Source of the DNA: Glycomyces sp. TRM65418
Lineage (GTDB): Bacteria; Actinomycetota; Actinomycetes; Mycobacteriales; Micromonosporaceae
Reading direction: 5' to 3'
NCBI RefSeq assembly: GCF_019710475.1
Contig: NZ_JAJFAX010000004.1
Coordinates: 62,001-126,000 of the forward strand
Length of the DNA: 64,000 nucleotides
Notes under the pieces: generated by a model
The model's database searches: none
The model's input: the letters and a program-made list of their open reading frames with translations, nothing else
Told to the model about the DNA's origin: nothing
Position numbers and translations under genes: made by a program
Part shown: positions 8,467 through 52,400 of the stretch, piece after piece
Layout of the letters: every line of letters starts with the position of its first letter
How positions within the stretch are numbered: position 1 is the stretch's first letter

Positions 8467-8605
8467 ACGAGTCGCGGTGCTCACATCGCGGCTCGTATCG
8501 CAGCGCAGGGCCGCGCCGCATGCGCGAGGTCCCGATCTGTGATGACACAACCGCCTTTTACCACGGATCGTCTGGCACGTACCTGCCAGTGAAAGGGACC
8601 ACATC
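8467..8605 (+). ncRNA. Structured 5' leader, candidate msiK-type RNA motif
   Basis: The leader begins with a 10-bp hairpin (8467-8476 with 8487-8496, one U-G pair, 10-nt loop) and ends with a second hairpin (CTGGCA 8572-8577 with TGCCAG 8584-8589) just before the ribosome-binding site AAAGGGACC. An 'msiK RNA' motif is known from the 5' leaders of actinobacterial msiK genes; this leader is in the same context, but I could not compare it with that consensus. No open frame of note lies within it. Confidence 0.4.
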
Positions 8606-20518: not shown

Positions 20519-20525
20519 ATTGCCC

Positions 20526-20610
20526 GTCCCTCATGCGGCGTCATCTTGTGAACCTCCCCAGGGCCGGAAGGCAGCAAGGATAAGCGAGCTCTGGCGGGTG
20601 CGTGAGGGAC
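20526..20610 (+). ncRNA. ffs: Small bacterial signal recognition particle RNA (4.5S)
   Basis: The conserved Ffh-binding core is present: 'TGTGAACCTCC', 'CAGGGCCGGAAGGCAGCA' and 'GCGAGCTCTGGCGGGTGCG', with the GGAA tetraloop. The ends GTCCCTCA (20526-20533) and TGAGGGAC (20603-20610) pair perfectly, giving a hairpin of about 85 nt, the short SRP RNA type. It delivers membrane and secretory ribosome-nascent chains with Ffh. A tRNA gene begins 3 nt further on. Confidence 0.95.
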
Positions 20611-20613
20611 CCA

Positions 20614-20689
20614 GCCGCCTTAGCTCAGTCGGCAGAGCGATTCACTCGTAATGAATAGGTCGTCGGTTCGATTCCGACAGGCGGCTCCA
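20614..20689 (+). tRNA. tRNA-Thr(CGT)
   Basis: The 7-bp acceptor stem GCCGCCT/AGGCGGC, D arm 'TAGCTCAGTCGGCAGAGC', anticodon arm ATTCA-CTCGTAA-TGAAT (anticodon CGT) and T arm 'GTCGGTTCGATTCCGAC' are all complete. A CCA end appears to be encoded (20687-20689). It follows the SRP RNA by 3 nt, so the two are probably processed from one transcript. Confidence 0.97.
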
Positions 20690-36644: not shown

Positions 36645-37532
36645 TTAGAGGTTCTCGATGACCTCGCGCATGAGGCGGGCGGTCTCGCTCGGGGTCTTGC
36701 CGACCTTGACGCCGGCGGCCTCGAGGGCCTCCTTCTTGGCGTCCGCGGTCCCGGCCGAGCCGGAGATGATGGCGCCGGCGTGGCCCATCGTCTTGCCGAC
36801 GGGCGCGGTGAACCCGGCGATGTAGCCGACCACGGGCTTGGTCACGTTCGCCTTGATGAACTCGGCGGCCCGCTCCTCGGCGTCCCCGCCGATCTCGCCG
36901 ATCATGACGATCGCCTTGGTCTCGGGGTCCGCTTCGAACGCCTTGAGGCAGTCGATGTGGGTGGTCCCGATGACCGGGTCGCCGCCGATGCCGACGGAGG
37001 TCGAGAAGCCGATGTCCCGCAGCTCGTACATGAGCTGGTAGGTCAGCGTGCCCGACTTGGAGACGAGGCCGATCGGGCCCGAGCCGGTGATGTCGGCGGG
37101 GGTGATGCCCGCGTTCGACTTGCCGGGGCTGGCGATGCCGGGGCAGTTCGGGCCCACGATGCGGGTCTTGTTGCCCTTGGACTCGGCGTAGTTCCAGAAC
37201 GTCACCGAGTCGTGCACCGGGATGCCCTCGGTGATGACGATGGCCAGTTCGATCTCGGCGTCGATCGCCTCGATGACGGCGTCGCGGCAGAACGCCGGCG
37301 GCACGAAGACCACCGAGGTGTTCGCGCCGGTCTCGGCCATGGCCTCCTGCACGGAGGCGAACACCGGCAGGCTGGTGCCGTCGACGTCGACCTTGGTGCC
37401 GGCCTTGCGCGGGTTCACGCCGCCGACGATCTCGGTGCCGGCCTTGAGCATGCGGCGGGTGTGCTTCATGCCCTCGGAGCCGGTCATGCCCTGGACGATG
37501 ACCTTGCTGTTCTCGTTGAGGAAGATCGCCAT
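36645..37532 (-). CDS. sucD: Succinate--CoA ligase, alpha subunit
   Basis: The TCA-cycle enzyme interconverts succinyl-CoA and succinate with substrate-level NTP formation. The 295-residue alpha subunit has the CoA-binding N-terminal fold ('[29 protein letters not shown]' region), '[11 protein letters not shown]', and the phosphohistidine loop '[14 protein letters not shown]'. It is second in the operon, 4 bp after sucC. Confidence 0.97.
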
Positions 37533-37536
37533 TGGC

Positions 37537-38715
37537 CTAGGCCCCCTTGTTCGCGAGCTCGGCGGCCTTGTCGGCGGCCGCGTCCATGGTCTCGACCACG
37601 GTGATGAGCGGGTGGTTCGCGTCGGCGAGGATCTGGCGACCCGCCTCGGCGTTGTTGCCGTCGATGCGCGCGACGAGCGGCTTGGTGACGTCCTCGCCGC
37701 GGTCGGCGAGGGTCTGGAGCGCGCCGAGGATGCCGCGGGCGACCTCGTCGCAGGCGGTGATGCCGCCGAAGATGTTCACGAACACGCTCTTGACCTGTGG
37801 GTCCGAGAGGACCACTTCGAGGCCGTTCGCCATGACCGCGGCGGAGGCGCCGCCGCCGATGTCGAGGAAGTTCGCGGGCTTGACGCCGCCGTGCGCCTCG
37901 CCGGCGTAGGACACCACGTCCAGCGTGGACATGACGAGCCCGGCGCCGTTGCCGATGATGCCGACCGCGCCGTCGAGCTTGACGTAGTTGAGACCGGAGT
38001 CCTTGGCGCGCTGCTCGAGCGGGTCCACGGCCGACTTGTCCTCGAACTCGGCGTTCTCGGGGTGGCGGAACCCGGCGTTCTCGTCGAGCGTGACCTTCGC
38101 GTCGAGCGCGAGGACCTTGCCCTCGGGCGTGCGCACGAGCGGGTTGACCTCGACGAGCGTGGCGTCCTCGGCCACGAACGCGCCCCACAGCTTGACGAAG
38201 ACGTCGACGAGCTGATCACGCAGGTCCTCGGGGAACCCGGCCTTGCTGACGATGTCGTTCGCGATCTCCGGGGTGACGCCGACGCCGGCGTCGATCGGGA
38301 GCTTCACGACCTTCTCGGGGTCGGTGTGGGCGACCTCTTCGATCTCCATGCCGCCCGCGGTCGACGCGATGCACAGGAAGGTGCGGTTCGCCCGGTCGAG
38401 CAGGTAGGAGAAGTAGTACTCCTGGTCGATGTCGGCGGTGACCGTCAGCATGACCTTCTCGACGGTGTGGCCCTTGATGTCCATGCCGAGGATGTTCTGG
38501 GCATGGGTCTGGGCCTCGGCGACGGTGTCGGCGAGTTTGACGCCGCCCGCCTTGCCTCGGCCGCCGACCTTCACCTGCGCTTTGACGACCACCCGGTCAC
38601 CGAGGCGCTCCGCGAGTGCCACGGCCTCCTGGGGGGTGGTGGCGACGCCGCCGTCCAGTACCGGCACGCTGTGCCGGGCGAACAGTGCGCGGCCCTGGTA
38701 TTCGTACAGATCCAC
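37537..38715 (-). CDS. sucC: Succinate--CoA ligase (ADP-forming), beta subunit
   Basis: The 392-residue beta subunit begins '[19 protein letters not shown]', has an ATP-grasp domain (about 5-235, with '[18 protein letters not shown]') and a C-terminal ligase-CoA domain containing 'LDIGGGASA' and '[16 protein letters not shown]'. The start is GTG 38715 with GGAG 12 nt upstream, slightly distant. It is the first gene of sucCD. The 676-bp region upstream is gene-free and rich in hairpins. Confidence 0.97.
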
Positions 38716-39041: not shown

Positions 39042-39160
39042 GGGGACCGGACGCACCCCTCAGGCGTCCGGTCCCCTTAGCGGAAATCAAGCCCACCCCT
39101 CAAAGGCTTGATTCCCTCAGGCACGATGCCCTATCGCCACCCCTCAATCGACAGGGCATC
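39042..39160 (+). ncRNA. Candidate 6C-type small RNA with three C-rich hairpin loops
   Basis: Three consecutive hairpins have unrelated but fully or nearly fully paired stems and the same loop core CACCCCTCA. Stem 1 is 39042-39053 with 39065-39076 (12 bp). Stem 2 is 39085-39093 with 39105-39113 (9 bp). Stem 3 is 39125-39132 with 39153-39160 plus 39134-39136 with 39149-39151 (11 bp, one A/C mismatch). Loops of 11-12 nt contain six or seven cytosines. Known actinobacterial 6C RNAs have two hairpins with six or more C in the loop and are thought to pair with G-rich ribosome-binding sites. Strand and boundaries are uncertain; on the minus strand the loops read TGAGGGGTG and the element would sit in a long sucCD leader. 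Confidence 0.6.
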
Positions 39161-39391
39161 GGCAGTATGTGGCATAGCTCAATGAACCATGCTAAATGCC
39201 GCGGTCTTGAACCGGGAGTGAACTCCCGGTGTCCCGGCTGTCTTACTCAATAGCGGCCTTTCGGCCGGCTGCCGATGCGTCTCGCGCCGTTTTCCACTGC
39301 GTCCGACACTTATAAGAACGAGGGCGCTCGCGGGCGGTTACGGCGTTCCCAAAGAATTTTTTCGCCTCGGCGTTCGCGCTGGCAGCAGCCG
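39161..39391. other. Gene-free hairpin-rich region downstream of the C-loop RNA
   Basis: A hairpin GGCATAGC/GCTAAATGCC (about 39171-39200), a tight ACCGGGAG-TGAA-CTCCCGGT hairpin (39211-39230, possible terminator of the plus-strand RNA) and CGGCC-TTTC-GGCCG (about 39254-39267) follow. On the minus strand TATAAG near 39296-39301 is a possible -10 for a transcript running toward sucCD. An AT-rich patch with GAATTTTTTC lies near 39353-39362. No gene was recognised. Confidence 0.4.
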
Positions 39392-39823
39392 TTATACGGT
39401 CGTCGCGCGCCCCTGATCGGGTGAGGCGACGTGCTCGCGGACCCATTCGGCGATCGCCTGGGTCGTCGCGCCGGGGCCGAATATCGCGGCCACTCCGGCT
39501 TCGCGCAGTTGCGCGGCGTCCTCTTCGGGAATGATGCCGCCGCCGAACACCACGATGTCGCGGGCGTCCGCCTCATCGAGGAGTCGCAGCACTCGCGGGA
39601 ACAGCGTCATGTGCGCGCCGGAGAGAATGCTCAGGCCGATCGCGTCGGCGTCCTCGGCGAGCGCGGTCGCCACGACCTGCTCGGGGGAGTTGTGCAGGCC
39701 CGTGTAAATGACCTCCATGCCCGCGTCGCGCAATGCTCGCGCCACGACTTTCGCGCCCCGGTCGTGCCCGTCGAGCCCGACCTTAGCGACGACCACCCTG
39801 ATCGGTGCGCCTGTTGCGGACAT
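39392..39823 (-). CDS. Cobalamin B12-binding protein (methylmalonyl-CoA mutase C-terminal domain type)
   Basis: The 143-residue protein is a free-standing B12-binding domain: '[23 protein letters not shown]' with the DxHxxG lower-ligand motif (here DGHDRG), 'GLSILSGAH', and '[15 protein letters not shown]' for the nucleotide tail. Such stand-alone domains pair with methylmalonyl-CoA or isobutyryl-CoA mutase large subunits encoded elsewhere. ATG 39823 follows GAGGAGG; the longer frame to 39859 adds an unlikely 12 residues. No mutase large subunit is in the window. Confidence 0.92.
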
Positions 39824-39939
39824 CCCTGTACCTCCTCGTACGGAGGCCGCGGCACCCACGGCGCTCTTGGCGAACCGTGCGTGCCGCGGCCGTTGCTGAT
39901 ACGAGTGAGCTTAGTCGCGACCGGCGTGGGGCGGTAGGC

Positions 39940-51646: not shown

Positions 51647-52285
51647 ATGACCGCTCCCCTCGCCGTCAACGCGCTCGAGACCGCCACCGTCCTCGTCTCC
51701 TTCGCCCTGGCGCCGCTGGCGTTGCTCCTCGCCTGGGGGCTCGCGTCCTTCCGGGTCCGTCGCGGCGTCCCCTCCGGAACCGCTTGGCGCCGCTCCGTCG
51801 CCGAGGTCGGGATGGTCGCCGGGACGCTGCCCTGGCTCTTCCTCGTGCTCACGCCCCGCGGCGGCTCCGGCGGCGTCCAGCCCGTGCCCTTCGCCGACCT
51901 CATCGACCTGGCCTCCGCCGACCCCCGCACCATCGTCGAGCAGCTCGTCGGGAACCTGCTCCTGTTCTTCCTCGCCGGCGTCTTCGTGCCGCTGCGGTTC
52001 CGCGTCGGCCTCCTCGCGGTCTTCCTCGGCGGGGCCCTCGGGGCCGCACTCGTCGAGACCGCCCAGTTCGCGTTCGGCACCGGCCGCGTCGCCTCGATCG
52101 ACGACGTCCTCCTCAACGCGATCGGCGCCCTGCTCGGGGCCCTCGCCTCGCGCCGCTGGTGGCGGGGCTCACCCTCGCGCGTCGCGCCGACGGCCGAATC
52201 GACCGTGTTACGCTCGGCTGGTCGCGACTGGCGAGTGACGTCTTTCGAGGTTTCCCGTGGCACGGACCGGGCAGCTCGTTGTTGA
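51647..52285 (+). CDS. VanZ-like family membrane protein
   Basis: The 212-residue protein has four hydrophobic helices and the VanZ-like core: '[18 protein letters not shown]', '[32 protein letters not shown]' (acidic/aromatic EtaQ and DDvlLN-G pattern, quoted here in two parts of the same helix pair). Some VanZ proteins give low-level teicoplanin resistance; most are uncharacterised. TAGGGT lies 6 nt before the ATG. The last about 25 residues ('[16 protein letters not shown]') are encoded by the start of the purH riboswitch and are probably incidental. Confidence 0.85.
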
Positions 52286-52400
52286 GGGGAAACCTCCCGA
52301 GACGGTCGCAGGTGGAGCACCACCAGGGAGCGGCACTGCTGAACCTGTTACTGCGGTCGAACGCCTGGGCCGCAGTCATTACTCGATCAGGAGCAGTGCA
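52214..52400 (+). promoter_or_regulatory. ZTP (pfl) riboswitch controlling purH
   Basis: The conserved 5' half ('GGTCGCGACTGGCGA', from 52220), the central 'CCACCAGGGAGCG' (about 52320-52332) and the 3' 'CGCCTGGGC' (about 52362-52370) match the ZTP/ZMP aptamer upstream of actinobacterial purH. GCACTGCT (52333-52340) is exactly complementary to AGCAGTGC (52392-52399), which overlaps the purH ribosome-binding site AGGAG. This suggests translational control, with ZTP binding freeing the site. The 5' half overlaps the vanZ-like coding end. Confidence 0.88.

Follow-up and report, generated by a model that had tools for sequence, protein, structure and literature searches.

A conserved minus-strand hairpin element with repeated G-rich loops beside sucCD in Glycomycetaceae and Micromonosporaceae

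Three hairpins between a B12-binding gene and sucC

The 64-kb stretch of Glycomyces DNA that we analysed (the window) carries, between a gene for a B12-binding-domain protein and the sucC–sucD pair, a compact run of inverted repeats. The features of this region, all on the minus strand, are as follows.

36645–37532, minus strand: sucD, a flanking gene
37537–38715, minus strand: sucC (ATP-grasp/CoA-ligase), roughly 330 nt downstream of the element, on the same strand
About 39042–39161, conserved pairing on the minus strand: the whole element, three adjacent inverted repeats
39042–39076, minus strand: hairpin C, the 3′-most and GC-rich, with a 13-bp stem and UGAGGGGUG in the loop
39054–39062, minus strand: loop motif UGAGGGGUG, copy 3 (motif scan of the 64 kb)
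39082–39116, minus strand: hairpin B, in the middle, with a 13-bp stem that includes G·U and UGAGGGGUG in the loop
39094–39102, minus strand: loop motif UGAGGGGUG, copy 2 (same scan)
39124–39161, minus strand: hairpin A, the 5′-most of the conserved hairpins, with a 13-bp stem (CGAUGCCCUGUCG/CGAUAGGGCAUCG) and a 12-nt loop (AUUGAGGGGUGG)
39138–39146, minus strand: loop motif UGAGGGGUG, copy 1 (same scan)
39172–39192, minus strand: hairpin 0, a short 5′ hairpin (GCAUGGUUC-AUU-GAGCUAUGC) from folding and by-eye comparison
39392–39859, minus strand: gene for the B12-binding-domain protein (155 amino acids), upstream and on the same strand in Glycomyces

An earlier note on this DNA, made from the letters alone, had described three adjacent hairpins sharing one loop, and its coordinates and loops were correct. 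On the minus strand, with G·U pairs allowed, the three stems have 13 pairs each; the loop is the sequence that the three share. The string TGAGGGGTG occurs three times in the window, always inside the element on the minus strand, against a mean of 0.45 in shuffled sequence, where three occurrences were reached in 1 of 100 shuffles. AGGGGT is present in 13 copies (10 minus, 3 plus), three of them within 13-pair stems; among six permuted 6-mers used as a control, a stem of at least nine pairs was found at 2 of 211 occurrences.

The plus strand places CACCCCTCA between the arms of each of the three repeats. Its fold scores z = −2.6 against dinucleotide shuffles, 3 of 200 of which fold equally well, and its best structure disrupts the middle hairpin. 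When a slightly shorter stretch was folded, the minus strand formed three clean hairpins at −78.3 kcal/mol and the plus strand reached −66.6 kcal/mol with rearranged flanks. Hairpin C resembles a terminator, yet it lacks a U-run.

Hairpin 0 may belong to the same transcript as hairpins A–C. By-eye comparison indicates that its sequence differs among species, and a variable 5′ hairpin is likewise predicted in many leaders of the Micromonosporaceae type defined below. Farther upstream, at about 39210–39230, the minus strand carries a palindrome (ACCGGGAGTTCACTCCCGGT) between the B12-binding gene and the element; it is shared by several Glycomyces loci but absent from others, and it may terminate the B12-binding gene.

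Strand of the selected pairing and conservation of the loop

Comparison of relatives distinguishes the strands, since a G·U pair on one strand reads as A·C on the other. We scored 1,238 stem cells in 37 loci found by similarity (22 from Glycomyces, window included, and 15 from other genera of the family): 1,132 form Watson–Crick pairs; another 80 read as G·U on the minus strand, and hence as A·C on the plus, with no case the other way round. The last 26 pair on neither strand and lie almost entirely at the outermost position of hairpin C. The 87 distinct Micromonosporaceae-type sequences, which overlap in part with these loci, gave 217 G·U against 0 A·C on the RNA strand, alongside 2,043 Watson–Crick cells and two others. 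Neither a plus-strand RNA nor a DNA palindrome predicts biases of 80:0 and 217:0, which disfavour both and overturn the plus strand that the earlier note had implied. A minus-strand RNA with G-rich loops is thus a well-supported reading of the conserved structure, as judged from comparative sequence. Three further loci (L128, L181 and L196), which come from a pattern scan of named genomes, have a variant hairpin A whose altered stems, as judged by eye, pair only if G·U is allowed on the RNA strand; they do not fit the strict pattern for hairpin A, and the promoter, orientation, 217:0 and copy-number counts leave them out.

An alignment of 22 sequences supports the same structure. Its pairs are kept in 98.4% of 570 cells, its covariation score was matched by none of 500 shuffles, and control structures slid along the same alignment were only 38–47% paired. 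Both sides have changed in 14 of the 26 pairs, although the changes in helix 2 lie partly between two different hairpins, because the alignment lines up the middle hairpin of eight three-hairpin rows with the final hairpin of the remaining rows; the per-hairpin counts of 80:0 and 217:0 are free of this mixing.

The loop is conserved along with the stems. AGGGGU is present in at least two hairpins in 37 of the 37 similarity-found loci. The earlier proposal of selection on structure plus loop holds. The 151 elements used in later counts were picked with the strict hairpin A pattern, which itself contains the loop, so that loop conservation among them is partly by construction and the unselected evidence is that of the 37 loci.

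Two types of element can be distinguished by the letters of the loop that precede GAGGGG, a definition under which two Stackebrandtia-like loci (L026 and L111) count as Micromonosporaceae-type. The loop occurs twice in 127 of 127 Micromonosporaceae-type elements and three times in 23 of 24 Glycomycetaceae-type elements, the remaining one having two. All 22 Glycomyces genomes have three loops. Hairpin A is present at each of the 37 similarity-found loci, whereas hairpin B is seen at the 22 from Glycomyces and, outside that genus, in a single further one (L024). A single Hamadaea record (L147), 1 of the 151 elements, has an extra GAGGGGUGG/GAGGGGTGG loop in its variable 5′ hairpin. A more distantly related genus from outside the family, f13 g28, has four syntenic loci (L212–L215), each with one loop-bearing hairpin and a neighbouring hairpin whose loop is unrelated; two of the four also have, by eye, CCGTTACC..GCGTTG-like boxes upstream. 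A loop present one to three times offers a natural series for probing how multi-loop small RNAs act.

The element is spread throughout the family. In a DNA search of 61 genomes, every one of the 37 from the same family, the window's own among them, matched strongly (E at or below 1.9e-7), and the next best genome had E = 0.009; relaxing the threshold to E ≤ 1 raises the tally to 55 of 61, chance matches among them. A custom covariance model (R1), a search of the kind that the earlier note had proposed, bore out this distribution: from 298 genomes across the order it picked out 60, with 54 in the same family, four in f13 g28 and two in f15. We accept f13 g28 as homologous because its four loci sit divergent from sucC, and take the two f15 matches (G226 and G256), in which we saw no sucC-like ORF by eye, as chance. 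The 20 listed of the 238 genomes that R1 missed are all of other families. At class level R1 matched 5 of 246 genomes, three of the same family and two weakly; the near-threshold matches outside the family in G399 and G516 were treated as chance. A pattern scan of named genomes returned at least 120 rows, the genera among the matches listed being Micromonospora, Actinoplanes, Dactylosporangium, Phytohabitans, Catellatospora, Asanoa, Hamadaea, Stackebrandtia and Glycomyces. The element and its 110-nt flank are identical in L062 and the M. zingiberis locus L137, which identifies g4, the genus of L062, as Micromonospora. A scan of viral contigs for hairpin A found nothing. The element is conserved across the antibiotic-producing Micromonosporaceae and the Glycomycetaceae.

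Gene orientation, promoter and relation to 6C RNA

We surveyed the orientation of the neighbouring genes at 157 loci. In all 24 Glycomycetaceae-type loci the element is flanked by the B12 gene on its upstream side and by sucC on its downstream side, and all three share one strand. Among the 129 Micromonosporaceae-type loci, both neighbours lie on the opposite strand in 114, which are all of those showing both; where one neighbour was seen, it was sucC in six and the B12 gene in seven, again on the opposite strand, and in L026 and L111 it was the B12 gene, which there precedes the element on the element's own strand. Its orientation to both genes differs between lineages, which speaks against its being the leader of either one. 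Independence from sucC is well supported by this genomic arrangement, and the element is probably a gene of its own.

Many of these elements have a promoter consensus of their own, a second pointer to a separate transcription unit. CGTAAC-N16-CGTTGA lies in exact form upstream on the RNA strand of 112 of 127 Micromonosporaceae-type elements, at 35–68 nt (median 42) from hairpin A; the others have a near form (12), a loose one (two) or none (one). The scan took elements with at least 150 nt upstream, leaving out L134 and L197 with less than 150 nt. Across 2.65 Mb of locus DNA the exact string occurs 136 times, a count that takes in both strands and places represented more than once. The exact form is absent from the 150 nt upstream of all 24 Glycomycetaceae-type loci, including that of the window, and seven of them have a loose one; a scan of the window region for sigma-70-type promoters found no alternative.

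The motif is exactly the one that PMC2375139 gives for sigma BldN; PMC4125116 and PMC4255298 describe BldN as developmental, and the latter confines convincing orthologues to morphologically complex genera. One Micromonospora genome (G024) encodes a BldN-like sigma factor (L323), which turned up when 30 of its 62 sigma-region-4 matches were inspected. The best solved-structure match of this protein is 6dxo_A (E 6.2e-67), which we take to be the RsbN–BldN complex. The Streptomyces sigma-BldN regulon (bldM, chaplins, rodlins) has this consensus in common with the 112 elements, but the targets named in passages of PMC4125116 are protein genes, whereas the element here would encode an RNA; a literature search for BldN together with small RNAs had no such RNA among its best-ranked matches. 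Developmental control of the RNA is well supported by these promoters for the Micromonosporaceae only. There, the BldN promoter would drive the RNA, which would probably be made at the onset of aerial growth or sporulation because the promoter is that of a developmental sigma factor. The promoter found in most carriers would tie the element to the switch from growth to sporulation.

The earlier note had read the hairpins as a relative of 6C RNA with an extra loop or as a new class; the evidence favours the latter. The Rfam 6C covariance model (RF01066, gathering score 47 bits), which the note had named as a check, has no match in the window, none in the element region at E up to 10, none in the whole genome of the window at E ≤ 0.001 and none in the loci of seven relatives at E up to 1. 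The model does detect 6C in the order, in 78 of 121 genomes at E ≤ 0.001 (72 above the cut-off). Twelve same-family genomes have a true 6C, in 12 of 12 at another place than the element, and none was found in the three Glycomyces genomes of the sample. The loops of the five 6C sequences that we examined are runs of C; the element, on the strand of selected pairing, has GAGGGGUG loops in place of the six or more loop cytosines that mark transcribed 6C. Given the separate places and the G-rich as against C-run loops, the element and 6C are different genes with opposite loop chemistry, and strand, model score and genomic place together rule out 6C membership.

The two RNAs nevertheless have features in common. 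6C is likewise short, with hairpins in tandem (two in 6C), a repeated loop and a stand-alone gene; published work connects it with sporulation in S. coelicolor and, in M. tuberculosis, with pairing through its C-rich loops (PMC9569102). The element differs in its G-rich UGAGGGGUG loops, in having one to three of them (two or three by lineage within the family, where 6C has two adjacent hairpins), in its lack of a covariance-model match, in its genomic place and in the BldN-type promoter of most relatives.

No Rfam family reaches its cut-off at the element, which is nonetheless real, conserved and structured. We took as chance the three rows from two microRNA families in the window region, far below their cut-offs, a match to ar14 at L033 (22.4 versus 58.8 bits), antisense to the element and overlapping it, and a match to RT-15 at L031 (20.3 versus 82 bits). 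A literature search, in several parts confined to the best-ranked matches and thin on subscription journals, yielded no earlier description of the element.

Candidate targets and competing explanations

If the loops pair with other RNAs, the expected site is their complement, CACCCCUC. The earlier note had suggested pairing with TGAGGGGTG-like ribosome-binding sites, a proposal that falls because the conserved strand is the minus strand, whose loops would pair with CACCCCUC instead. Mimicry of the Shine–Dalgarno sequence by the loops was also rejected, as their duplexes with the anti-Shine–Dalgarno reach −10.7 to −11.3 kcal/mol against −21.0 kcal/mol for a perfect Shine–Dalgarno.

In 101 genomes of the family, 25 of which were individually shown to carry the RNA, CACCCCTC was counted 499 times ahead of GGAG..ATG, and the control 8-mer, its reverse with the same dinucleotides, 262 times; these counts include orthologous sites repeatedly. 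By genus, the means are 4.75 and 2.79 per genome (44 genera, Wilcoxon p = 1.4e-4), and the four element-bearing f13 g28 genomes have 24 against 13. The 46 genomes from other families of the order (18 shown as R1 misses, the rest not seen as matches) have 104 against 92 (20 genera, p = 0.23). Throughout 10 family genomes the 8-mer occurs 1,807 times and its reverse 1,558 times (1.16 times), while near ribosome-binding sites in the same genomes the counts are 77 and 39 (p = 0.006, still 1.7-fold). The direct contrast between family genera and other genera reaches p = 0.045 on differences and p = 0.23 on log ratios.

Individual sites, with genes named by eye, recur within genera: four Glycomyces (L287, L288, L289 and L291) have one ahead of a gene for a GH3-type glycosidase, and three Micromonospora (L295–L297) have one ahead of a gene for an iron-transport-like binding protein; a single site precedes a phosphate-permease-like gene (L304). 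Such within-genus repeats were the only ones in the 20 stretches compared, with no target common to several genera, and none of the three sites in the window's genome recurs in them. We regard the enrichment as a modest, suggestive lead.

The explanation that we favour, and to which we give an about even chance, is that the minus strand encodes a trans-acting, development-linked small RNA whose repeated loops bind CACCCCUC sites in mRNAs. The transcript would comprise two or three hairpins, each with a UGAGGGGUG loop, and the variable 5′ hairpin, and the final GC-rich hairpin probably also ends it. The repeated loops would most likely pair in trans with CACCCCUC sites, some directly adjoining Shine–Dalgarno sequences, and this pairing would lower translation of the mRNAs that bear them. 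More speculatively, and rather improbably, the RNA could represent a new class of development-controlled riboregulator, a mirror image of 6C in which BldN-driven, identical G-rich loops silence mRNAs that have CACCCCUC next to the Shine–Dalgarno sequence, with a loop copy number tuned by lineage.

A protein, rather than mRNAs, might be what the loops bind, with the RNA sequestering it as CsrB and RsmZ do CsrA; we consider this possible, if doubtful. Repeated identical loops are typical of protein sponges, and RNAs of the CsrB/RsmZ type likewise carry an identical loop motif in unrelated stems. The element fits this pattern in having the same loop core in differing stems, in its copy number of one, two or three and in the additional loop copy in the 5′ hairpin of L147. 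However, CsrA sites contain GGA, which the loop lacks, the copies number only one to three, and to our knowledge no CsrA partner is known in Actinobacteria; the CACCCCTC enrichment near ribosome-binding sites, although weak, would also be unexpected.

Pairing of the G-rich loops with the C-rich loops of 6C itself, as partner or sponge, is unlikely. Twelve same-family genomes do encode 6C, and against the five sequences with C-run loops the computed duplexes are −15.7 to −17.9 kcal/mol for the hairpin A loop and −10.3 to −13.7 kcal/mol for the hairpin C loop (a perfect 10-bp complement reaching −19.5 kcal/mol), values that ignore intramolecular folding. These duplexes, however, engage parts of 6C within its stable stems, the loop–loop overlap amounts by eye to about four G–C pairs, and 6C went undetected in the three Glycomyces genomes, where G-rich loops are most numerous.

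Three other explanations fare worse than a trans-acting small RNA. A cis-acting leader controlling transcription or translation of the succinyl-CoA synthetase genes sucCD is very improbable: the element is 5′ of sucC on the same strand at the 24 Glycomycetaceae-type loci, but the stretch between the last loop and sucC ranges from 184 to 617 nt in 24 loci, and sucC is opposite and divergent at 120 of 120 Micromonosporaceae-type and 4 of 4 f13 loci where it was seen, which contradicts a leader for most of the family. We give similarly little credence to an element acting as DNA, whether transcription terminator or protein-binding inverted repeats; the 3′-most stem is GC-rich and intergenic, but a palindrome gives no reason for one strand to show G·U rather than A·C, the loops are conserved along with the stems, and a terminator consensus scan of the window region called no intrinsic terminator. 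That the plus strand encodes a 6C RNA with an extra hairpin, which its CACCCCTCA loops with 6–7 C and two or three tandem hairpins had suggested, is barely credible given the strand counts, the lack of a 6C match at the site or in the genome, the location of 6C elsewhere and a BldN promoter that in relatives runs along the G-loop strand.

The window holds further RNA features. A small SRP RNA (20523–20616, plus strand) adjoins a tRNA gene (20614–20686), the Rfam coordinates overlapping by three bases, and an msiK RNA cis-regulatory motif lies at 8546–8604 on the plus strand. A ZMP/ZTP riboswitch match at 52214–52377 on the plus strand scores 41.1 bits against a cut-off of 39; it spans 164 nt for a model of 86 positions, which implies a long insertion.
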